A stretch of DNA of 39,308 bases from an uncultured Bacteroidales bacterium (GTDB lineage Bacteria > Bacteroidota > Bacteroidia > Bacteroidales > Paludibacteraceae): assembly GCA_902762355.1 (NCBI GenBank), contig CACWNR010000023.1:1-39308 (forward strand). Direction: 5' to 3'. Position numbers and translations under genes: made by a program. The notes beneath the pieces were generated by a model. The model saw only the letters and a program-made list of their open reading frames with translations. It was not told the origin of the DNA and did not search any database. This document shows, in pieces, positions 19,221 to 39,144 of this stretch (its first letter is position 1; each line of letters opens with the position of its first letter).

Positions 19221-19293
<73 letters not shown>

Positions 19294-19303
19294 CTTTTTT
19301 TTT

Positions 19304-19385
19304 GCCCAGATGGCGGAATTGGTAGACGCGTGCGTTTCAGGTGCGCATGCCGCGAGGTGTGCAGGTTCGAGTCCTGTTCTGGGCA
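19304..19385 (+). tRNA. tRNA-Leu(CAG)
   Basis: An 82-nt class II tRNA. Acceptor GCCCAGA pairs with TCTGGGC, the D-loop is TGGCGGAATTGGTAGACGC, the anticodon loop is TTCAGGT (anticodon CAG) between TGCGT and GCGCA, a long variable arm follows, and the T-arm contains GGTTCGAGTCC. Discriminator base A. Confidence 0.96.
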
Positions 19386-19476
19386 CAAAAAATTTTAATT
19401 TTTGGGAAGAGCGGAGCGCCCGAGTACTTCCTTTGGGAACGAGGTTTCCAAACATGTACGAGGGATGCGAACGCGA

Positions 19477-19560
19477 GCGCAGGTGGTGAAATTGGTATAC
19501 ACGCTACTTTGAGGGGGTAGTGGTCGCAAGATCGTGTGAGTTCGAGTCTCATCCTGCGCA
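19477..19560 (+). tRNA. tRNA-Leu(GAG)
   Basis: An 84-nt class II tRNA. Acceptor GCGCAGG pairs with CCTGCGC, the anticodon loop TTGAGGG (anticodon GAG) lies between CTACT and GGTAG, and a long variable arm and GTTCGAGTC T-arm follow. It lies 91 bp behind tRNA-Leu(CAG) and 163 bp ahead of the recombinase gene, a typical placement of a tRNA next to an integrated element. Confidence 0.96.
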
Positions 19561-19581
19561 CAAGGGTTGAAAATCAATAAG

Positions 19582-19600
19582 TTACGCGTGAGACGCGTAA
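19582..19600. repeat. 8-bp palindromic inverted repeat behind tRNA-Leu(GAG)
   Basis: TTACGCGT and ACGCGTAA flank a 3-bp GAG spacer, a perfect inverted repeat 22 bp past the tRNA end. It has no T tract after it, so it is not an ordinary terminator. A recombination core or a protein-binding site is possible. Confidence 0.55.
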
Positions 19601-19620
19601 AAATCGACCCAAAATCTGCC

Positions 19621-19652
19621 CAAATGACTTTCACGGATGTGGAAGTCATTTG
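19621..19652 (+). terminator. 14-bp hairpin downstream of the tRNA genes
   Basis: CAAATGACTTTCAC (19621-19634) pairs with GTGGAAGTCATTTG (19639-19652) around a GGAT loop, with one wobble pair. T-rich sequence follows only 20 bp later, so it may act as a weak terminator or processing signal for the tRNA transcript. A different structural role is possible. Confidence 0.45.
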
Positions 19653-19670
19653 TCATTAATAACATTGTTT

Positions 19671-19720
19671 AACTTTTTTTCTCCCGCCAATCAGAAAAGG
19701 TTGGCGGAAGAAAAAAAATT
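19671..19720 (+). promoter_or_regulatory. 20-bp stem-loop covering the translation start region of the recombinase
   Basis: The left arm (19671-19690, T7 then CTCCCGCCAA) and right arm (19701-19720, TTGGCGGAAG then A8) are complementary at 18 of 20 positions, with a 10-nt loop. The right arm contains the A-rich stretch that would serve as the Bacteroidetes ribosome-binding region, ending 3 bp before the ATG at 19724. The fold could hide the translation start. Confidence 0.5.
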
Positions 19721-19723
19721 ACT

Positions 19724-20962
19724 ATGTTGGTTCAAAATTTTGGAGCCCTAAGGCAATTTGTTCCCGCAGAGCTCAAACACAATTCTAAAGGTTGGTACAT
19801 CGAGTACTACAAGCTTAACCCTATCGTTCAAGACTTAGAGCGCGTTCGTATTATGATGAACCGCGAGCGCAAGCGCTGCAAAACTCTCACCGAGTTCAAA
19901 TTGCAGACTAGCGCTATTATTCTTCAAATCAACAATCAACTTGCTGCTGGTTTTATCAATCTTCAACAAAACATTCCTGCATACGGAATCGGTACGCAGG
20001 AAAATTATACGGGAGATAATGTTCGCTTTTACACTCCGTTGGAGCAGGTAATTGACCTGTATGAAAAAGATCGATGTGGTGAGTTGAAAGAAACGACTAT
20101 GCGAAGCTATAGTTGCTTCTGTAAACAATTCAAACAATGGGTGCATAATAACTGTCCATCTATTGCGGCTTCAGTTTTCTCGCAGACACAGGCGAACCAG
20201 TACATGGAGTTCGTGCTTCTTGGCAACAACTCGAAAGGCAAGAAGTCTGTCCGCAAGAAAATAAGGGAAGATCGCGTAAGTCCGCGTACGTACAATAATA
20301 ATATAAAACTCGCGCGTGCGTTGTTTAGTTGGGCGATGGAAAAGAGTTACGCCCGTGTCAATCCGTTTGAACACCTCAAACAAAAGAAAGCGCAAGGTAA
20401 GGATCGTACCATTATCCCCAAGGAAGTTCGCGACAGAATTGTTGCATACTTTAGGGAAAAGAATCCTGCATTCATCATCGTCATGCAACTGGTGTATAAA
20501 TCCTTCCTGCGTCCGGTAGAGATTACACGTGTCAAGGTGGAGCAGCTGAACTTCGAGAAACATTGTATCGAAATGAAAGGCTCGCAGAAGAAAAACGGCA
20601 AAGACCATAACTGCCGTATGGATGATAAACTGGAAGCTTTATTACGTGACCATATTCGTGGAGCCAAACCGGATGATTTCGTCTTTGGCGCCGGCACATG
20701 GAAACCGAGTCAGACTCCTGCTGCATCACACTCGTTCACTATCATCTGGGATCGAATGAGAGAAGCGTTGAAATTGCCGAGAGAATATCAACTCTATTCT
20801 CTTCGTGATAGCGGAATTAACAATCTGCTAAAAGCAGGTGCCACCGACTTGGACGTCGTTCAGATAGTTGGTCACAGCGACCTTAGTATGACTTTCCGCT
20901 ACGCCAATCACATTGATGAGAGCCTTATTGAACGTATCAATAAGATAGCTCCGGAGTTCTAA
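19724..20962 (+). CDS. Tyrosine recombinase/phage integrase, Bacteroidetes type
   Basis: The 412-aa protein has an Arm/SAM-like N-terminal region typical of Bacteroidetes integrases (VRIMMNRERKRCKTLTEF, about 40-60), a core-binding domain (about 110-220) and a C-terminal catalytic domain. Catalytic positions seen are Arg263 in FLRPVEITRVK, Arg361 in YSLRDSGI, His384 in GHSDLS and the nucleophile Tyr393 in FRYANH. Tyr358 replaces the usual box II His. It is probably intact and follows tRNA-Leu(GAG), consistent with tRNA-targeted integration. No relaxase, excisionase or structural phage gene is next to it, so it may be the last part of a degenerate element or the tool of a larger island. Confidence 0.93.
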   Translation: MLVQNFGALRQFVPAELKHNSKGWYIEYYKLNPIVQDLERVRIMMNRERKRCKTLTEFKLQTSAIILQINNQLAAGFINLQQNIPAYGIGTQENYTGDNVRFYTPLEQVIDLYEKDRCGELKETTMRSYSCFCKQFKQWVHNNCPSIAASVFSQTQANQYMEFVLLGNNSKGKKSVRKKIREDRVSPRTYNNNIKLARALFSWAMEKSYARVNPFEHLKQKKAQGKDRTIIPKEVRDRIVAYFREKNPAFIIVMQLVYKSFLRPVEITRVKVEQLNFEKHCIEMKGSQKKNGKDHNCRMDDKLEALLRDHIRGAKPDDFVFGAGTWKPSQTPAASHSFTIIWDRMREALKLPREYQLYSLRDSGINNLLKAGATDLDVVQIVGHSDLSMTFRYANHIDESLIERINKIAPEF

Positions 20963-27669: not shown

Positions 27670-28131
27670 TTAATCTTTAATATTCATTACTTTTTTCGCA
27701 TCTGCCAATATCTTATCATGGTCGAAAGCCAAAGGCGGTAACTCATTCAGCGGCCACCATTTCGCAGCAGCGGCATCATCGGCAGCAGTAGCCACCGGCA
27801 TGGTAGTCATGGCTGTATAGGCTGCTGTTATGACACGTCCACGCGGATCACGCTCCACATCGGAATAGATACCCACCAACTGCATACCGGTCAACACGAT
27901 ACTGGTCTCTTCCTCCAGTTCACGCTCGGCACAACGAGCTACCGTCTCATCCATCTCAAGGAACCCACCGGGGAATGCCCAGCAACCTTTGTACGGTTCG
28001 TTACCTCGTTGGATGAGTAGCACGTACATCTGACCCTCTTTCTCTGCAAATAGCACGGCATCCGCTGTTACCGATGAACGCGGATATTGGTAGGCATACA
28101 GCCCGTCTTCTGTTAATTTATAGTCTTTCAT
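27670..28131 (-). CDS. NUDIX hydrolase (ADP-ribose pyrophosphatase-like)
   Basis: The 153-aa protein contains the NUDIX box at about 56-78, GFLEMDETVARCAERELEEE. Its metal-binding Glu residues are intact (Glu71, Glu74, Glu75), with Ser at the usual final Gly. Upstream PYKGCWAFPGG is typical of ADP-ribose and nucleotide-sugar hydrolases. Being translationally coupled (4-bp ATGA overlap) to a PARG-like gene makes ADP-ribose, the product of that enzyme, a plausible substrate; this is inference. Confidence 0.92.
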   Translation of the reverse strand: MKDYKLTEDGLYAYQYPRSSVTADAVLFAEKEGQMYVLLIQRGNEPYKGCWAFPGGFLEMDETVARCAERELEEETSIVLTGMQLVGIYSDVERDPRGRVITAAYTAMTTMPVATAADDAAAAKWWPLNELPPLAFDHDKILADAKKVMNIKD

Positions 28132-28952
28132 ACTCTTATAATCTCCTTAAATGCGCAATAGTTGCTATCGTCGTGCGGGCGGCAATAGACCGCAAACTCA
28201 ATCGTCCGGAAATGGTGGCTGAACTCTGCCAGCACATCGTTGTAAGCACGCGCCACCACTTGCGGGTCGTTCTGGAAGGCTCCGCAACCAAACGCACCCA
28301 ATATCAGCACGTTCGCTTCGTTCTGCGCAGCCACCGTTAAGATACGACGTGCACGTTGCTTGTGCAGTTGGTACAACTCGTCCTTGCTGATACGTTTGGC
28401 ATCGCCGTCGCCCGGATTATAGGGATTAGCCGGTTGCTCACGCAGGTTCGGCGCAGCACACGTGATAACATCCACCGCAAACGGATCCATCAATGGCCGG
28501 TAGTCATCGTCTTTGAGCACTTGCACGTTGGGCGTGAAGATGATGTCATCGTTATGCAACGGATTGCCGGAATGACGATGCGGCGTGTAGAACCCATCCC
28601 ACATGGCGCGTGTGTTCAGGCAGTTGTATAAGGTGGAGCAACGGCACAGACATTCCTCTTGCGCAGACGAACCATGCGTCACACCTCCGCCGGGATTAGT
28701 TGCCGAAGCGAAGTTCAGCACGCACACATGTCGTCCAATGTGTTGTGCCGCTGCCTCAAAGGAACGGTTCTTCGTCACGATGACCTGTGCCTTCTCCTCG
28801 AACCTCGGTGCCGGAATGTCCAACGATTCCTTTTCGAGAATCAGCTTCTGCGCGGCGATGGATTGCTGCTGCGCTTTATGTAATTCAAAGTCACCATTGA
28901 TACGCTCCAACGTATCGTCAAAAACCGATATAAGATATGCTCTGCGATCCAT
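28128..28952 (-). CDS. TIGR02452-family PARG-like macrodomain protein
   Basis: The 274-aa protein is a microbial poly(ADP-ribose) glycohydrolase-like macrodomain (TIGR02452/DUF2263). The signature GGGVTHGSSAQEE (88-100), with catalytic Glu pair at 99-100, sits after VLNFASATNP. LILGAFGCGAFQNDP and VDVITCAAPNLRE complete the ligand site. Such enzymes cleave ADP-ribose chains or single ADP-ribosyl groups. It is the first gene of the minus-strand accessory run, 30 bp from a consensus promoter, and overlaps NUDIX by 4 bp. Confidence 0.93.
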   Translation of the reverse strand: MDRRAYLISVFDDTLERINGDFELHKAQQQSIAAQKLILEKESLDIPAPRFEEKAQVIVTKNRSFEAAAQHIGRHVCVLNFASATNPGGGVTHGSSAQEECLCRCSTLYNCLNTRAMWDGFYTPHRHSGNPLHNDDIIFTPNVQVLKDDDYRPLMDPFAVDVITCAAPNLREQPANPYNPGDGDAKRISKDELYQLHKQRARRILTVAAQNEANVLILGAFGCGAFQNDPQVVARAYNDVLAEFSHHFRTIEFAVYCRPHDDSNYCAFKEIIRV

Positions 28953-29297: not shown

Positions 29298-29324
29298 AAA
29301 AAAGCGCGTCCCGTAGAACGCGCT
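29298..29324 (-). terminator. Terminator of the six-gene defence-like operon
   Basis: On the minus strand AGCGCGT pairs perfectly with ACGCGCT (29318-29324 and 29303-29309) across an 8-nt loop and runs into six T. It begins 7 bp after the AIPR gene stop. Confidence 0.9.
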
Positions 29325-29330
29325 GAGTTA

Positions 29331-31478
29331 TCACTTGTCAGGGATGATGTAATCGGTTTCTTGGTCGAGACGTTGGAAGATTTGAACGAGACGTTTTACT
29401 TGACGGTCGGTTAGATTGCCTCTTGATACGCTTATCGCACAGATACGTACGCTATCTCTGTCTGCTCCTGATAAGAGGTTTAAACGCTCCATATCTTTAT
29501 ATACGCGATTAAGGTAATCTGCACCTAAAGTCATGAACTTAGCCCACATATCTGTTGCCATGTTGAAACGTGTTTGACGCTCCTGCGTTTTTGCTTCTTC
29601 CTTTTCGAAGGAACTATCAACCGCATCTTTGATGAAATCGTCAGTAAGCGTTAAGGGTGCTTCAAGATATTTCTTCCACGTCTCTTCCTTGATTGCATAG
29701 GTACGTTCGTTGCCATGGTTACTTACCTTTTGCAGGAAATCAAACGTTTGCCGAGATACTAACTCAGCTTGCCGTGCCAAAGATGGATATATATCTTGTG
29801 TCTTCCAGATACGTTTCCAATCTATTTCCTTGCCTTTAGGAAGCGTAGCAATTATCTTAGCAATTGTGTATGGTACGTACATAGCTTTATAACCACCCGT
29901 AGGATACCAATCGGCATTATTGATGATCTTGTCTATCTTATCGTAGATAATCTTTACTGCTACCATTTTCCTGAAGAAATAGCTATTGATTGCGGCAGGA
30001 TTCGATTTCTTTAATTCAACTATCTTACTTGAGAATAATTCCCAGTTGTTAACCGGACCTTTACAAACGCTATATGGCAACAATTCGACGGTATTGAAAT
30101 ATACGCCCAATTTCTCTTTTGTGATAACTTGGTTCTTTGGGTGCAACTTTAACCATTGGTCTCGTTTGCTCTTGGTCATGTTGAAAGTAGATTGTTCATG
30201 ACGATGAGCAGAACGCTCATAGAACCAGAATGTACCATTAACCTCACCCGGTTTAGGTGGTGTTTGGTTTTCAACCAATAGCGACAGACGCTCCATATCA
30301 CGATGGAATGGATCGTTAGAGAAGAAGTCGGCTTCTTTCGTCGGGTTCTGCCAGTTCGAGCTACGTGCTATCTTTTGAACGAGGTCATTATATTCATCTT
30401 TTCTTAGCTGAAGCAATTCCGGATCTTCTATCTCATCCAAATTGAAATTGAGCACGGTTAACTTCATCGGCACATATATCTTTTCGAGGTTACCTTCCGG
30501 AGCCTCACCTTTGATATAGGCGTTACAAAGGGATACCGTTGTCTGACCACCATTCACGATTTGGAACCCATCAAATGATGTAATATAGTGTCCATCTGGA
30601 GAAAGAGTAACAGAGTTTGCTACTACAGCAATACCGTTATTGTACGTAAAGAAGCGTTCTGGCTCTTTACTAATAATGGTGCTTCTAATAGCCTTATTGA
30701 CCTTTCCTTTTGCGCTCAAGAAGCATCTAATGTTACCCTCTAAGAGTTGGCTTTGGAATTTCTTGAATAGTTTAGCCAACATAAGACCCGGTACAATACC
30801 CATGTAGGACTCAAATTGATTGGATTGAGATATGTGTGCCTTTAGGCATTGGATGCCGTCTATACCCCATTCTTTACAATCAATCAGGATGCGCTCACTT
30901 TGTGAACTACGGAAATTATCGTAGAAGCGTTCGAGTGTCCAAACTTGCAGGATAGCTGGACGACCGAGCAATAACTCTTGCTCCAGATTTTTTACACGTG
31001 TAGAAAGCGTTTTGTTCGTAACGATATAGAAACGGAAAGCCGTAATCTCGGTTGTTTCCATGTTCTTGCCTATCTTGCTACGGAACTCATTTGCAATATC
31101 TATGATCTGGTCAGATTCATCACTTGCAGCCCTTGAAATAAGACCCTCTGCTGCATCCTGAATAAAATATTGCATTTTATTGTACAGGACACGAATATCT
31201 TCATTCGTTAACGCTCCTGCATCTTGGCTATCGACAAAGTCGGTAATGAGCAATTGGATAGTAGAGTCTGCTTCTCCATATGCATACGCATGGAAGCCTA
31301 AATTGCGATTTCTCGACTTTAGGTTACAACGGAACATAACGGGGTCAATCAACACCTCATTCTTCACAAGCAAATCTAACGCTTCTTCTATGAATTGTTC
31401 TTGATTGAGATTTCCGTTTATCTGTGCGTTATTCCGCAGTTGCGATAGGAATTCTTCACGATATTCTTCGAGGGTCAT
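29331..31478 (-). CDS. AIPR-family (abortive infection phage resistance) protein
   Basis: The 715-aa protein is of the AIPR family (PF10592), first noted in plasmid abortive-infection systems and in restriction-modification-like gene clusters. The family core is visible: FTYNNGIAVVANSVTLSPDG leading to IVNGGQTTVSLCNA at about residues 303-316. A helical N-terminal part precedes it (about 1-160) and a long C-terminal part with TYAIKEETWKKYLEAPL follows. No transmembrane segment is seen. Its molecular activity is not established. It is the last gene of the operon, 8 bp behind the PD-(D/E)XK gene, and a strong terminator follows. Confidence 0.9.
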   Translation of the reverse strand: MTLEEYREEFLSQLRNNAQINGNLNQEQFIEEALDLLVKNEVLIDPVMFRCNLKSRNRNLGFHAYAYGEADSTIQLLITDFVDSQDAGALTNEDIRVLYNKMQYFIQDAAEGLISRAASDESDQIIDIANEFRSKIGKNMETTEITAFRFYIVTNKTLSTRVKNLEQELLLGRPAILQVWTLERFYDNFRSSQSERILIDCKEWGIDGIQCLKAHISQSNQFESYMGIVPGLMLAKLFKKFQSQLLEGNIRCFLSAKGKVNKAIRSTIISKEPERFFTYNNGIAVVANSVTLSPDGHYITSFDGFQIVNGGQTTVSLCNAYIKGEAPEGNLEKIYVPMKLTVLNFNLDEIEDPELLQLRKDEYNDLVQKIARSSNWQNPTKEADFFSNDPFHRDMERLSLLVENQTPPKPGEVNGTFWFYERSAHRHEQSTFNMTKSKRDQWLKLHPKNQVITKEKLGVYFNTVELLPYSVCKGPVNNWELFSSKIVELKKSNPAAINSYFFRKMVAVKIIYDKIDKIINNADWYPTGGYKAMYVPYTIAKIIATLPKGKEIDWKRIWKTQDIYPSLARQAELVSRQTFDFLQKVSNHGNERTYAIKEETWKKYLEAPLTLTDDFIKDAVDSSFEKEEAKTQERQTRFNMATDMWAKFMTLGADYLNRVYKDMERLNLLSGADRDSVRICAISVSRGNLTDRQVKRLVQIFQRLDQETDYIIPDK

Positions 31479-31486
31479 AGTGGTAG

Positions 31487-32401
31487 TTATTTCTTATAGG
31501 GTAATATTTCAGCCAATATCAGGTCAAAGCTTGCTTTCGCGATAGCAGCCGGTATGTTGGTACGGCTAATACGAGGGAAACTGTCATCTACGCGGTATTC
31601 ATCTGTTGCACGTAGTTCATACACAAACTCATCATACTTGGGATGATATGCGTAGTTGTAGTCCTTTAATTTCGACAGAAGGATATCCTTGTCGCTAACG
31701 GATTGCACTTTCTTAAGAACGGACGCAACAAGTTTGTTGAGCGAGATACCTTTGTATTCTTCAGCCATGCGCTCTAATTGGAATACGACCAGACTTCCTT
31801 CGATGGGGCTATCCAGTTGTTCGATAGAAGATATATGAACGGTATCCTTACCGAAATCAATCGTCTTGACTTCAAACCACTCTTGATCAAACGCAAAATC
31901 TTTACGTGTTTTCTCGGCTCCGCTCCATGAACTGATAGCTTTGGTTGTACTCATTCTGGGGAATAGGTGCTCGCTCAAGAATAACAGTTCTCCTATTAAG
32001 CCCTTTATTTCTGCTTCAGAGAGGAAGTCAGAACTGGAGCGGAACATTTTCTGCATGATGAAATACACCTCGCAGATGGCGTGGTAGGCATCTTGATTGG
32101 AGAGGCTGGATTGAGCGGTTGCATCAATTAGGGAGTTGAGGAAATCACAGAATGGGTGTAGCAGTTTGTTGTCCAATAGCGAGAACTCGATAGATTTTGA
32201 GCCATCGGTATTGTTGTAATGAACGATGTCAATAACTACAGAGGAATGTATTTTGCGATTAATCACAAACTTTCCTTTGAACTCAATTGCATTACGTCCT
32301 TTCTCGTCCTTGCCGTAATACAAGTCGACAGGGTGCGTGTCACCTACGCGTTTCCACGAGTTTGAGCCCGACGCTAAATTGAAGTCGTATTCAGTAATCA
32401 T
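31487..32401 (-). CDS. DUF4420 PD-(D/E)XK nuclease-like protein
   Basis: The 304-aa protein matches the PD-(D/E)XK motif family DUF4420 (PF14390). The catalytic region is KGLIGELLFLSEHLFP (helix with the conserved GE), an Asp in KDFAFDQEW, then WFEVKTIDF giving the E-x-K pair, around residues 138-182. These fit a metal-dependent endonuclease fold. In this operon it is the only clear DNA-cutting component and is expected to act with the Z1 motor encoded just upstream (12-bp gap). The rest of the protein is not recognised. Confidence 0.88.
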   Translation of the reverse strand: MITEYDFNLASGSNSWKRVGDTHPVDLYYGKDEKGRNAIEFKGKFVINRKIHSSVVIDIVHYNNTDGSKSIEFSLLDNKLLHPFCDFLNSLIDATAQSSLSNQDAYHAICEVYFIMQKMFRSSSDFLSEAEIKGLIGELLFLSEHLFPRMSTTKAISSWSGAEKTRKDFAFDQEWFEVKTIDFGKDTVHISSIEQLDSPIEGSLVVFQLERMAEEYKGISLNKLVASVLKKVQSVSDKDILLSKLKDYNYAYHPKYDEFVYELRATDEYRVDDSFPRISRTNIPAAIAKASFDLILAEILPYKK

Positions 32402-32413
32402 AGCTGTATTATT

Positions 32414-35269
32414 TTATTCGTCTTCATCAGTATCAAGAAGACCATCATTATTCTGGTACACTACATTTGTATAGTAAGAGCGATTGTCCGATTCGTGACC
32501 GAATCCCGGAATGCCTATCGCATAACCCATAATCGGGTCATTTCCTACTTCTTTGATATAATCGCCCAACACGTTCTCAACATCATCACTATTTGATGGG
32601 TATACAGGATAGATAAAAAGAACCGGATTGCGATCTACATATTTGAACCATGTACACCGGTTTATCTTTTGTGCAGATATGGGGTTTATTCGTGATTCCT
32701 TATCTTTGTAATCCTCTTGCACCTTTTTCGGATTAGCAAGACCGATACTACCATCATTATTACCGCTGACTACACCTTGGTGTGAGAAAGCGAAAGCCTC
32801 TCCATCACCACGTATATCTAAACGACGAGTTGATGCCTTTATAGTAATAGTTGAATCAGGGAAAAGACCTCCAATCTCATTTCCTGTACCACCAACGATA
32901 GCCACATCCCATTTAGACAATTCTTCCAAGTTGGATGCGATAAATGTTGATATACGTGTTCTATTAAATTTAAGGTTCTTGTCAGAAGTACGAATTCTAC
33001 CTAAAAAGTCTATGACATACTTAGCTTCTATGTCACGCATTATAAAAGACGCACGTGACTTGACTTTCTCCAGAGAAGCACCTTGTTCGGAAAGCTCTCT
33101 AAGCCAGCGTTTTGTTTCATCCAGATTGATAGTATTATCCTGTACAAAAGTACTGAAATATGGAGTTTCAAACACATCCCCCCAATAGGTGGTACGCACT
33201 TCACATTTCCCGGCTTTACGCATTTTATTGCGTGCCGTAATTTCAAGGGCTGTATCGTCACGACGAATACGGAGTCCGAATTGTTCCGGAGTAAGTTCCA
33301 GCGAGTTCATGTGAGCCAATTCGGATTTGAGTTCATCCGTAGCTTCTGCAATCTCACGATACCAGTTTGCACTTGTGTTAGTTATCCATATACGGCACAC
33401 TTTATCATAGTGCGGACGATAGCCGAACCAGCGTCCCATCTGCATGAGCACATCGTAAGTGCATGTGTTGCGATAGAAATAGCTGGTCGTTAGTCCTTTG
33501 AGTGTAAGACCACGAGATAGCGCCATACCACCAACTGCTATGATGCGCCATGACGGGTTCTTCTTGTAGTTCGGTGTATCTTCACGAGACTCTTTGGAAC
33601 CGTTCACCACAATCACACGAATACCTTTCGTCTCTTTCTCGGAATCCCATTTAAGGAGAGCCTCTCTTTGTCCGACTTGTTCCCATGTGTAGCCACAATT
33701 GGAATAGTGCTTGTCAAAGAGACGACGTAATTCGTCATATAATGGATTACCGACATTACGCGATTGATCCTTGCTGAAGTTAACACGTATCTCTTTATAG
33801 TCAGCACCTACCAGTTCAGCTATCTGATTTTTAAGATAGGAATGAACGTTAATAAATTTCGAGATATTGACCAGCATGGTACGAGGCGCATCAAACTGCT
33901 TCTCGTCTAAATCGCGAATAGTATTGGCAAGATAAAAACACCTGATTGCTTCTATAAGTGACTTGGGTAGTTTACCGCGCCAATCCCTCTTATGTTTATA
34001 GAAGATTGGACCATATATCAGTTGTTCTTCCGTCATTTCGCGAATCTCCATTTGAGATGGTTCTTTGATATCGCGAATATAGGTCTTGTCTATCATATAA
34101 GAGCAATTGCCGTATGTCGGGTGCTCTTCTGTAGGCGTGCCGAAGATACGTTGGGCTCCGATATAGGGAGCAGGTGTAGGAAGAACGTATATGAAATCTT
34201 TCGGGAAAAGGTCAGCAGCCACCATGTCTTCATCTGTATCCGGGTTGATGAAGATATTTGCATAAGGTGTAGCTGTGAAGCCGACATAGTTAGAGTTCAT
34301 AAAGATCTCGCATATCTCACGTATCCTTTTGTTAGTAGCCGTAGGATCGATTGTACTATCTTTAGTGTTGATAGATGCGTTATCTGCCTCATCATCAATT
34401 AGCAACAACGAGTACGGTAATTTGCCTTCCTCATTCAGTTGTTGGTTTGGTCCTGTCAGCCAATCACGCAAGTGGGTTAAGACCGGAACATTCTTCTTGA
34501 CTACAAATAGGACAAGTGACTTGTGAGAACCGATAGAGGTCATAGATTTAGCCCTTGAGATATTGAAGTCGTCCTCATAAAGGGTAAAGGTTGTGACTTT
34601 ATTCTCCCATCCGGACAATTTACCTACTCCCACCTTAGATTGTTGGTTGTTTTTGAAATTATCTGTTCGTATCGTAAGGCCGACAATATCTTCTTCTATA
34701 CGTTCCTGCGTTTGCTGACGAAGCGTTTCTGTGGTACCTGCTAAGAGGATTACGACTTTCATCCCGGCATCGGCAGCTTTACATATGAGACCGGAATAAG
34801 TGCTTGTTTTACCGGATTGTACATCACCCAGCACGAGTCCGTAACGTTTCCGTTGCTTGGTAAGTTCCTCTTGCGGGTTGCCCAAACAATTCATGAGTGC
34901 AGGAAGCGTTTTATCTCCGAGTAGGTCTAATGATGCTCGGTCTAGGTCGCCTTTCTCTGCATGATACGCGCTAAATAAATCCCAGAAATATTCCTCTTTG
35001 GGTTTGTTCTTTGTGTACCACGTATTGTCAAACGGTTCGTCGCTAATAATAGCATATCCATCATGATCGTGCTGGACGAATATATAGTTCTCTAAGTATT
35101 CGACCAGTTCTTGTTTGTCTGCTTCAGTTGGTTCCCACTTCTTTAAGAAGAAAAGTTGGAACTCAACAAACTTAGCCAAATCTTCTTTAGAAATGGATAT
35201 AGCAGATTTCTGCGATTCGAGTGTTTTACGAAGCGTTTTCTTGGCTTCCTCTAATTCGGCTAACGTCAT
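32414..35269 (-). CDS. Z1-domain superfamily II helicase-like ATPase
   Basis: The 951-aa protein is a helicase-like motor with a Z1 domain (PF10593). Walker A is GDVQSGKTST (Lys154), Walker B is LLIDDEADNA (Asp292, Asp293, Glu294), and motif III is VGFTATPYANIF (about 331). The Z1 part includes LKGLTTSYFYRNTC and QMGRWFGYRP (about 608-618), the arginine-rich motif VI equivalent. Z1 proteins occur in restriction systems; in the CglI enzyme a DEAD-Z1 subunit drives cleavage. An N-terminal helical region (1-140) and a C-terminal part (about 700-951) are unassigned. It overlaps the GHKL gene by 4 bp (ATGA). Confidence 0.93.
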   Translation of the reverse strand: MTLAELEEAKKTLRKTLESQKSAISISKEDLAKFVEFQLFFLKKWEPTEADKQELVEYLENYIFVQHDHDGYAIISDEPFDNTWYTKNKPKEEYFWDLFSAYHAEKGDLDRASLDLLGDKTLPALMNCLGNPQEELTKQRKRYGLVLGDVQSGKTSTYSGLICKAADAGMKVVILLAGTTETLRQQTQERIEEDIVGLTIRTDNFKNNQQSKVGVGKLSGWENKVTTFTLYEDDFNISRAKSMTSIGSHKSLVLFVVKKNVPVLTHLRDWLTGPNQQLNEEGKLPYSLLLIDDEADNASINTKDSTIDPTATNKRIREICEIFMNSNYVGFTATPYANIFINPDTDEDMVAADLFPKDFIYVLPTPAPYIGAQRIFGTPTEEHPTYGNCSYMIDKTYIRDIKEPSQMEIREMTEEQLIYGPIFYKHKRDWRGKLPKSLIEAIRCFYLANTIRDLDEKQFDAPRTMLVNISKFINVHSYLKNQIAELVGADYKEIRVNFSKDQSRNVGNPLYDELRRLFDKHYSNCGYTWEQVGQREALLKWDSEKETKGIRVIVVNGSKESREDTPNYKKNPSWRIIAVGGMALSRGLTLKGLTTSYFYRNTCTYDVLMQMGRWFGYRPHYDKVCRIWITNTSANWYREIAEATDELKSELAHMNSLELTPEQFGLRIRRDDTALEITARNKMRKAGKCEVRTTYWGDVFETPYFSTFVQDNTINLDETKRWLRELSEQGASLEKVKSRASFIMRDIEAKYVIDFLGRIRTSDKNLKFNRTRISTFIASNLEELSKWDVAIVGGTGNEIGGLFPDSTITIKASTRRLDIRGDGEAFAFSHQGVVSGNNDGSIGLANPKKVQEDYKDKESRINPISAQKINRCTWFKYVDRNPVLFIYPVYPSNSDDVENVLGDYIKEVGNDPIMGYAIGIPGFGHESDNRSYYTNVVYQNNDGLLDTDEDE

Positions 35270-36756
35270 AATGAATATCTCTTGTTGATTTTCTTTTTCA
35301 AATCATCATTATCCTTAAACTGCTCGCAGGACAATACCATTTTAACGGCTTCTGGTAGCGGTGTTCCTTTGATTATCGTCCATTCGATAGCCATAGTCGC
35401 TTGCTCGTACAGGTCGTTCAGTTTATCCACACTCTCTTCTGAACGATCAATATGGTTTTCGTCATGGTCGAGGTGAAGTTGGTGTATTGGCAGGTGTGAT
35501 TCAATCTGCTGTAACATCATTTCAACAGCTGTTTTCTGTTCGTCATTCAACAGGTCTAAAACGCCATGTATGAAGGTGTTGTTACGATTGACCTTGTAGG
35601 AATAATAGCCTTCACGTGCTTCGAGACGATCCCATACATACACTTCTTTTTCCTTCGGGTCAGTTACCGCACGTCCTCTAAATTTTGTTTGACGAGTTGA
35701 TTTCGCGATAAGTTTTCCGATTGTTTTCTCCAGCAGTTTTGCAAGTTCCGTTGGAATCTCTGCATTACGCTTCATGACGTCCACTTTCCAGATGTCATCC
35801 ATGCAATTGGGGATATCTACTTTTACACGTGCGTATTTGGATACTTCATGACGAGGTGTTCCAAACCATGTGCCGTAGCGAATGAGACGACGACCGCGAT
35901 AGATGTAGAAACCTTGCATCTTACTCATCTTATCCGCACCACCAATTAAGCTTAGTTCAGCCTCGGACATTTCTGTGACAAACGGCAATTTGTAGGGAGT
36001 TATTAAAATGGTATGCTCTTTGCCGTTGGAGTCGGTTAACGGTTGCGGAATGGTTCCCCAGGAGCAATCTGAACGATTTACCAAGAATGGGTCAAGAGGT
36101 GCTAATTCCTGATAGTTCACATAGATCTTAAGACCATCTTCCGACATAAAACGATGGTATATGAGCGGGAGGCGATCAAGCAAGTTGTCTCGATTGCGCG
36201 TGAGAGCTTCGTAGAGACGTCCTCCGGAGGACTTAAACATTCCGTCAAAGTCTTCCCATAGTACCAGAGTTCCGTGCTCCAATCCTGCTATTTCACTATA
36301 GCAATAAAGCTGACTTATTTCATGAGGTTCTAATTCAAGTACAGACCAATCACTCCGTTGTCCTTGGCTTGTTATCTCATCATAATCCCAACGATATGCG
36401 CTCATCTTTCCTTCTTTCTTGCTGACAACTGTCATCTTACGACATTGGGAGAGAGAAGCCGATTTCATACCCAATCCGTAGCGACCAAGGTCGTTCTCTT
36501 CACGTTCTTTCTCGTTCGCCTGACTACCATAGCACATAGCTCGGAAAAGTTCCTGATTGGACATACCGCAGCCATCATCTAAGATACCTACGTAGATGTT
36601 ATCCGGATTAGTCGGAAACAGCAACTTGATATACGTACATCCTGCACTAATGCTATTGTCCATTACATCGGCAATAGCATCTGAGAAAGAATAGCCCATG
36701 TGGCGCATAGAGCCCATGAGATATTTTGCTTTTGGAGGATTGGGTATTCTTTTCAT
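35266..36756 (-). CDS. MutL/MORC-like GHKL ATPase
   Basis: The 496-aa protein has a GHKL ATPase domain of the prokaryotic MORC/MutL-related type. The N-box is IADVMDNSISAG (29-39) with Asp30 at the position of the catalytic Glu of MutL and the Mg-binding Asn34. DDGCGM is at 60-65 and GRYGLGMKSAS at 91-101. An S5-like second domain and a helical C-terminus follow, with no MutL endonuclease motif. Such ATPases act as ATP-gated clamps on DNA. Family genes of this kind occur beside methylases and Z1 helicases in predicted restriction systems. It is 2 bp behind the 229-aa gene. Confidence 0.92.
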   Translation of the reverse strand: MKRIPNPPKAKYLMGSMRHMGYSFSDAIADVMDNSISAGCTYIKLLFPTNPDNIYVGILDDGCGMSNQELFRAMCYGSQANEKEREENDLGRYGLGMKSASLSQCRKMTVVSKKEGKMSAYRWDYDEITSQGQRSDWSVLELEPHEISQLYCYSEIAGLEHGTLVLWEDFDGMFKSSGGRLYEALTRNRDNLLDRLPLIYHRFMSEDGLKIYVNYQELAPLDPFLVNRSDCSWGTIPQPLTDSNGKEHTILITPYKLPFVTEMSEAELSLIGGADKMSKMQGFYIYRGRRLIRYGTWFGTPRHEVSKYARVKVDIPNCMDDIWKVDVMKRNAEIPTELAKLLEKTIGKLIAKSTRQTKFRGRAVTDPKEKEVYVWDRLEAREGYYSYKVNRNNTFIHGVLDLLNDEQKTAVEMMLQQIESHLPIHQLHLDHDENHIDRSEESVDKLNDLYEQATMAIEWTIIKGTPLPEAVKMVLSCEQFKDNDDLKKKINKRYSL

Positions 36757-36758
36757 GG

Positions 36759-37448
36759 CTATTTGATAAGATTTGGATAGAAAGATGAATACAAAGTTTT
36801 GTTTGCCGGAGTAATGATATCAAAGATACCATGCTCAAAGGTGTTCCAGTAGGATTCGAATTCCGTCTCGCCGGTAGGCGGAACTATGTTATCGCAATTT
36901 GCGATGAGATCACGAACCAGAGCTGTAGCCAGCGGATTGATGATGTAGTCGTTTCCATCCACGACCACTAATTCGGATGCCACAAGCAAGCCGCGAATAT
37001 AGCGCATAGAGTCGGAGTTGGACAGAGGGATTGGTGCATATTTCGCAGCAAAGACTTTGTCTAATTCTTCCGTGAATGATGTCTTGTTCATACGACCACG
37101 TGTTTGAATTTCATCCAGCACGAATGGTAGGAGTGGTTCGTTATATACGGTTGGTTCGTCTTTGACGTTCGTGGTCTTTATCCATTGTTTGGACAGCATA
37201 AGGAAGGCATATTCACGATAGGAAATAGCGCCTAAGGTGACATGCAGAGCCACTTTACTGAGGTGAAGCGTATTGTCAGATGTTTCCAGTAGACCAGACT
37301 TGCGGGCGAATGTAACGTCCGCAGGTGACATACGCTCCGGAAAGATTCCGATATAATAAACGGAGTCTTTTACGTTATCTGGAGTGATGTATTTTAATGT
37401 GTCCAACTCAAGTGTTTTGAGTTCGGGACCGGTCTGTTTCTTACGCAT
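36759..37448 (-). CDS. Unrecognised 229-aa protein between methyltransferase and GHKL genes
   Basis: No family is recognised. The protein has no signal peptide or membrane segment and looks like a mixed helical domain protein. Residues about 128-185 (PFVLDEIQTRGRMNKTSFTE, then SMRYIRGLLVASELVVVDGN) have the helix-helix-helix-wing feel of a winged HTH. The end, FESYWNTFEHGIFDIITPAN, is aromatic-rich. It overlaps the methyltransferase gene by 8 bp and ends 2 bp before the GHKL gene, so it is a fixed part of the operon. A DNA-recognition or adaptor role is a guess. Confidence 0.82.
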   Translation of the reverse strand: MRKKQTGPELKTLELDTLKYITPDNVKDSVYYIGIFPERMSPADVTFARKSGLLETSDNTLHLSKVALHVTLGAISYREYAFLMLSKQWIKTTNVKDEPTVYNEPLLPFVLDEIQTRGRMNKTSFTEELDKVFAAKYAPIPLSNSDSMRYIRGLLVASELVVVDGNDYIINPLATALVRDLIANCDNIVPPTGETEFESYWNTFEHGIFDIITPANKTLYSSFYPNLIK

Positions 37449-39144
37449 TCTCTTTCAGGTAAGGAATAAGTGTTAATATTATCTCTTTAAGGACAGGCAC
37501 TACGATTGAGTTGCCGGATTGGTGGTAAGCCTGATGGTCATCCACCACGATACGGAACTTATCGGAGAAGCCCATTAAGCGCAAGCACTCGCGCGGGGTA
37601 AGTTTACGTCCAACGGCATCTACCATGCCTTTTCCATCTTGGAAGTCATATTTACCGATGAAGATACGCGGGTCAGCATAGTGCTCCGGTAGCGGATGCT
37701 CTATACGAAAATCTCCAATCCAGTTGTCTTGTTGGTTTGCTGTTTGGCAACCGATTATATCTTGGTTGACACGCGAACGGCGTTTGTGCTTCTCATAGGT
37801 GGTAATCCATGTGAATCCACCTTCGCCTAGATAGTATTTAAGAGGTATCGGTCCTTTTTCAAGGAAGTCGGTACTCTTCTTCGTGAGTTTCTTCTTAGCA
37901 GGGAATTGGTAATCGGTTGTGCATATATCTGCCCGAATGCCAACGATAAAGACACGGCGACGCAATTGCGGATGATCATAGTCAACTGCGTTCAGGATGT
38001 CAGGGAATATGCGGTAACCAAGGGACTCCCAAACAGATAGCATCGTATCCCATGTGTGACCGTTGTCGTTTGATTTGATAGCGGCTACGTTTTCATAGAT
38101 GAATACCTTTGGCTGGGTCTCTTGAATGATACGAGCATAATCATAGAAAAGCGTACCACGTGCATCTTCTAAACCTTGCTTCTTGCCGTAAGTTGAGAAG
38201 CTTTGGCACGGACTTCCACCAACGAGGATATCCACTTGTCCAGCATAATCATCTCCACGCATGAATCGAATGTCGGGATGGAAATCGTTCGGTGCGATAT
38301 CATAGTTGGCGAGATACGATTCTCTCACGTAGTTCCTGTGTTCACCTTCATATCGAAGATAGAGGTCGTTCACAAATTTGGTTCGTTGTTCCTTCGTGGG
38401 AAGATTATAGCAATACTCCCGAATCTCCTCAACACGTTGGTTGATGAGGTTCTTGTAGCGGTTTAACTTTTCTTTCTCGGCTGCGTCTAACTTACGTACA
38501 CGACGATTGAGGTCGAGATATGCCTTTCTATTGTCTTTATCATCTAACAGAACCAGTTCAATCTCTCCGTTATCGCACGCAAACTTTATTTGATGCGGCA
38601 CTTTCAATTGCTTCAAGGCTTCTTCGAAAGCACCTATGCCGCTAAATAGCGTTCCCACACGAAGGGGGTATCCCAACTTAAGCGGGTCGGCTTGTTTCGT
38701 TGTGGGTTTAAGATATTGACCAAGTTCCCTTCCCGTAAGAAGAAGCGGACTATAATCATATTTCGTTCTTTTGTCTTTTGGTTCGCGCGTTTGAATTAGT
38801 TTTCTTATATTGCCACGCGATATCTGGTGCTCATCTCCAAGCATGTATGTGATGTACGAGCCAGAAGGATCTTCGTAGCCCATTTCTTCCATCTCATGCT
38901 GAGTCTTCTGCTTGGCTCCAAGGCACTCATAGAGATGCTTCTTTTGGAACGAGCCCTCCTCATAAATCAGTATGTATCTAGGAAGTGGACAATTATCAAA
39001 TCCACCATGGCGCGACACGAATAGATCTGCGTTGCTGCGCACGTTGTATAGTCTGTTCGCAAAGACCCATTCCATCTGCGCCTTTTGTGGTCTGCAGCCG
39101 CCCACAAGAATCAAATCATCTTTATGTTCCTCAAACGAAAACAT
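37441..39144 (-). CDS. DNA (cytosine-5) methyltransferase
   Basis: The 567-aa protein carries all main C5-methyltransferase motifs. Motif I is GTLFSGIGAFEE (164-175), motif IV is GGSPCQSFS with nucleophile Cys313, and motif VI is YENVAAI (Glu351). Motif VIII is DHPQLRRRVFIVG, motif IX is RKLTPRECLRLMGF and motif X is YHQSGNSIVVPV. It transfers a methyl group from S-adenosylmethionine to cytosine C5 in a specific site; the site cannot be read. About 160 residues before motif I and a charged helical insert (about 200-275) between motifs I and IV are unusual. It is the first gene of the operon and probably protects self DNA. Confidence 0.96.
   Translation of the reverse strand: MFSFEEHKDDLILVGGCRPQKAQMEWVFANRLYNVRSNADLFVSRHGGFDNCPLPRYILIYEEGSFQKKHLYECLGAKQKTQHEMEEMGYEDPSGSYITYMLGDEHQISRGNIRKLIQTREPKDKRTKYDYSPLLLTGRELGQYLKPTTKQADPLKLGYPLRVGTLFSGIGAFEEALKQLKVPHQIKFACDNGEIELVLLDDKDNRKAYLDLNRRVRKLDAAEKEKLNRYKNLINQRVEEIREYCYNLPTKEQRTKFVNDLYLRYEGEHRNYVRESYLANYDIAPNDFHPDIRFMRGDDYAGQVDILVGGSPCQSFSTYGKKQGLEDARGTLFYDYARIIQETQPKVFIYENVAAIKSNDNGHTWDTMLSVWESLGYRIFPDILNAVDYDHPQLRRRVFIVGIRADICTTDYQFPAKKKLTKKSTDFLEKGPIPLKYYLGEGGFTWITTYEKHKRRSRVNQDIIGCQTANQQDNWIGDFRIEHPLPEHYADPRIFIGKYDFQDGKGMVDAVGRKLTPRECLRLMGFSDKFRIVVDDHQAYHQSGNSIVVPVLKEIILTLIPYLKENA

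Follow-up and report, generated by a model that had tools for sequence, protein, structure and literature searches.

We found that a six-gene operon on the minus strand (29331..39144) of a 39,308-nucleotide contig from an uncultured Bacteroidales bacterium of the Paludibacteraceae (CACWNR010000023.1; the whole stretch is hereafter the window) is probably a hybrid, in which a set of engine proteins is combined with a McrBC-type specificity pair. This pair comprises a C5-cytosine DNA methyltransferase (MTase) and g2, a gene without a family assignment whose product would be a free-standing reader. Judged from sequence, the two appear to have been acquired together from a defence system not related to this one, a history suggesting that g2 is the part of the operon that recognizes foreign DNA. 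The first-pass annotation had already described the six genes, running from the MTase to an AIPR gene, as an operon of a known predicted restriction-modification class; the operon is real, the family matches (PF00145, PF13589, PF14390 and PF10592) were recovered, and it is a member of that class. The first-pass interpretation as a whole is partly supported, its class call being right. The addition to this class is the presence in such an operon of a McrBC-type specificity pair with a probable separate reader, and we found no description of a hybrid pairing of this kind in our searches of a set of open-licence papers. The published text covered on the class mentions no separate gene for a reader.

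The MTase (37441..39144; 567 residues) was recovered at 5.6e-66 with PF00145 and displays the PCQ motif, with the previously noted Cys313, and ENV at 351. In the MTase tree, it groups with McrBC-linked MTases with a support of 100/100, which places it by sequence in the lineage of the McrBC/LlaJI-type systems. Further, the region between motifs VIII and IX (residues 405-512; 37609..37932), the presumed target recognition domain, is 65-70% identical to those of four McrBC-linked MTases whose McrB has a g2-type domain, and at most 54% identical to those of the remaining McrBC-linked MTases compared.

The proposed target reader g2 (36759..37448) is found in the same position in all six clade loci found, with 74-99% identity and tight gene junctions. 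A g2-only profile was searched against 358 family genomes, seven of which gave a match at an E-value of 0.01 or better. Three of the matches are g2 itself (G000, G491 and G570), and a further three are the N-terminal parts of AAA+ P-loop proteins of 593-661 residues (G514, 4.3e-14; G447, 1.2e-7; G725, 1.1e-5). The match in G624 (0.0037) was rejected as due to chance: it is a 140-residue frame antisense to a transporter-like open reading frame (ORF). The three AAA+ proteins are McrB-like (AAA_5), and their genes are followed by nuclease genes: a weak RE_LlaJI match slightly below the cut-off in locus L059, its homologue without a Pfam match in L061, and a DUF2357/PDDEXK_7 protein in L060. When compared as single sequences with isolated McrB N-domains, g2 scored 53 bits with L059, 42 with L060, 19 with L061 and 12 with L080, the E-values being set aside for so tiny a database. 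When L059-L061 are included in the profile, it picks up L080 at 204 bits but leaves the other eight McrB-like proteins unmatched; L080 is joined to the g2-type group mainly through its 50% identity to L061. A segment of about 50 residues present in the McrB N-domains is missing from g2.

Comparison of the McrBC/LlaJI-type loci indicates, at the level of sequence, that readers and engines shuffle between systems. The readers of L059 and L060 are 43% identical, whereas their motor domains have no detectable similarity (E 0.03); conversely, the motors of L080 and L085 are closely related (2e-125), but no similarity is detectable between their readers. A second reader family, with no detectable similarity to g2, shows like shuffling. 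Three plasmid-borne LlaJI-annotated systems (L077-L079) carry it at the N-terminus of their McrB-like protein; in L083, it forms the N-domain of an HNH_2 enzyme encoded behind a related MTase (27.7 bits; 3.7e-8, with 312 ORFs searched); and in L084, it stands alone as a 185-residue ORF (42.7 bits; 9.5e-13) between the MTase and a different McrB-like gene. The last is a separate precedent for a predicted reader as a protein of its own. In L060, a second McrB-like ORF (L060:11599-13650; phmmer 4.2e-150 to the first) lies upstream of the MTase; the N-domains of the two are not similar to each other, and one engine may be shared by two readers.

The reader role of g2 is proposed because its homologous domains occupy the DNA-reader position of McrB-type motors. 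McrB proteins bind DNA through their N-domain, the structure of which is unrelated from system to system (PMC7680126). The role is also favored because purified LlaJI R1, a McrB-like subunit, alone binds its own target site in gel shifts (PMC1459862), and because the parallel reader family includes a fusion to an HNH nuclease, where target reading would be natural. That g2 is instead a regulator strikes us as very improbable: a weak structure model gives it a predicted secondary structure resembling tandem winged helices, and a helix-turn-helix-domain gene adjoins the operon of one relative (L031), but the gene is kept in place across the clade with its tight junctions, and it has McrB N-domains, not regulators, as distant homologues.

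The MORC-like GHKL ATPase and the DUF4420 nuclease of the first-pass annotation are likewise borne out, as is its AIPR gene. The MORC-family protein (35266..36756; 496 residues; PF13589, 3.6e-36) finds only MORC2/MORC4 in the PDB and has the S5 motif GFYIYRGRRLI at residue 282, with G, Y, Y, R and R invariant in 29/29. The motor (32414..35269) has DVLMQMGRWFG at residue 606, the second residue being V and not T, with D, Q, R, F and G invariant in 29/29. The PD-(D/E)XK nuclease (31487..32401; 304 residues; PF14390, 2.5e-48) preserves its E, D and ExK residues in 28/28. The AIPR protein (29331..31478; 715 residues; PF10592, 7.9e-75, and PF22879) is followed directly by a terminator-like hairpin and T run (29303..29324, minus strand; 9 pairs, 6 GC), although the overall number of such sites is not above that in shuffled sequence. 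In L025-L027, L037-L041 and L052, pairs covering the last ~120 AIPR residues vary more there than elsewhere in the protein, in contrast to the invariant NNG/NGGQTT core, and this segment could possibly form a contact or specificity surface.

These four proteins are relatives of components of the MZA anti-phage system (MzaABCDE), which reportedly originates in Gao 2020. Each of them finds a match among the MzaB, C, D and E models, but with scores far below the NCBIfam cut-offs (252.9/850, 400.2/1500, 69.3/420 and 210.4/1050 bits, respectively). MzaA is not in the operon: the sole match of PDLC02203 (a 683-position model) in this ~76% complete genome is a sigma-70 protein on contig C3. Nor is g2 a MzaA protein. 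With the LlaJI/McrBC-type systems, the window has in common the MTase lineage and the McrB-like N-terminal reader domain; however, searching the six proteins at E 0.01 yielded no AAA+ McrB-like GTPase, McrC or LlaJI nuclease, and the reader is a separate protein rather than part of a McrB-like subunit. The available text on Pin25611FIII of Prevotella intermedia mentions no g2 counterpart (PMC5608340). CglI/NgoAVII uses a PLD nuclease with a B3 reader domain and has three genes (PMC4267653), hence without MORC, DUF4420 and AIPR; neither PLD nor B3 families were found in the six proteins at E 0.01.

The operon might alternatively act chiefly by abortive infection via AIPR, with nuclease and methylation as sensors instead of cutting unmethylated sites in phage DNA. 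The AIPR motifs NNG, NGGQTT, N.QN and F.ER, a polar set, are strictly invariant (28/28), and the models that the protein matches, AIPR and AbiU, take their names from abortive infection. Yet the AIPR name is here a predicted label, and a C5 MTase together with an intact PD-(D/E)XK nuclease and a motor motif set are standard restriction parts, so we regard it as unlikely.

The MTase also has an N-terminal extra domain (about residues 1-161; 38662..39144), without a family assignment and alpha/beta in a weak structure model, which is optional in the clade: it is carried by the window, L029 and L032, and absent from L030 and L031. The DNA similarity of L030-L032 to the window ends at 38648-38664. 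In L031, the MTase is closely preceded by genes for a helix-turn-helix regulator and a GIY-YIG-domain protein. The close relative RUG11711 has a split MTase ORF (L028:688-2326), in which about 64 bases (window 38457-38520) are missing, through either real loss or assembly error.

A cluster of tRNA-Gly, two tRNA-Leu genes and an adjacent tyrosine integrase gene (19221-20962), ~8 kb from the downstream end of the operon, is likely an integration site. In the three relatives whose DNA extends far enough, AIPR is followed after 0.4-1.1 kb by a NUDIX gene of the same orientation (L029:17058-17441, L030:11747-12154, L031:18533-18949), the three being 65-69% identical to one another; the corresponding place in the window (27670-28952) holds a PARG-domain gene and a NUDIX gene distinct from that of the relatives. 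The NUDIX gene beside the operon could reflect either a shared insertion site or a loose partner.
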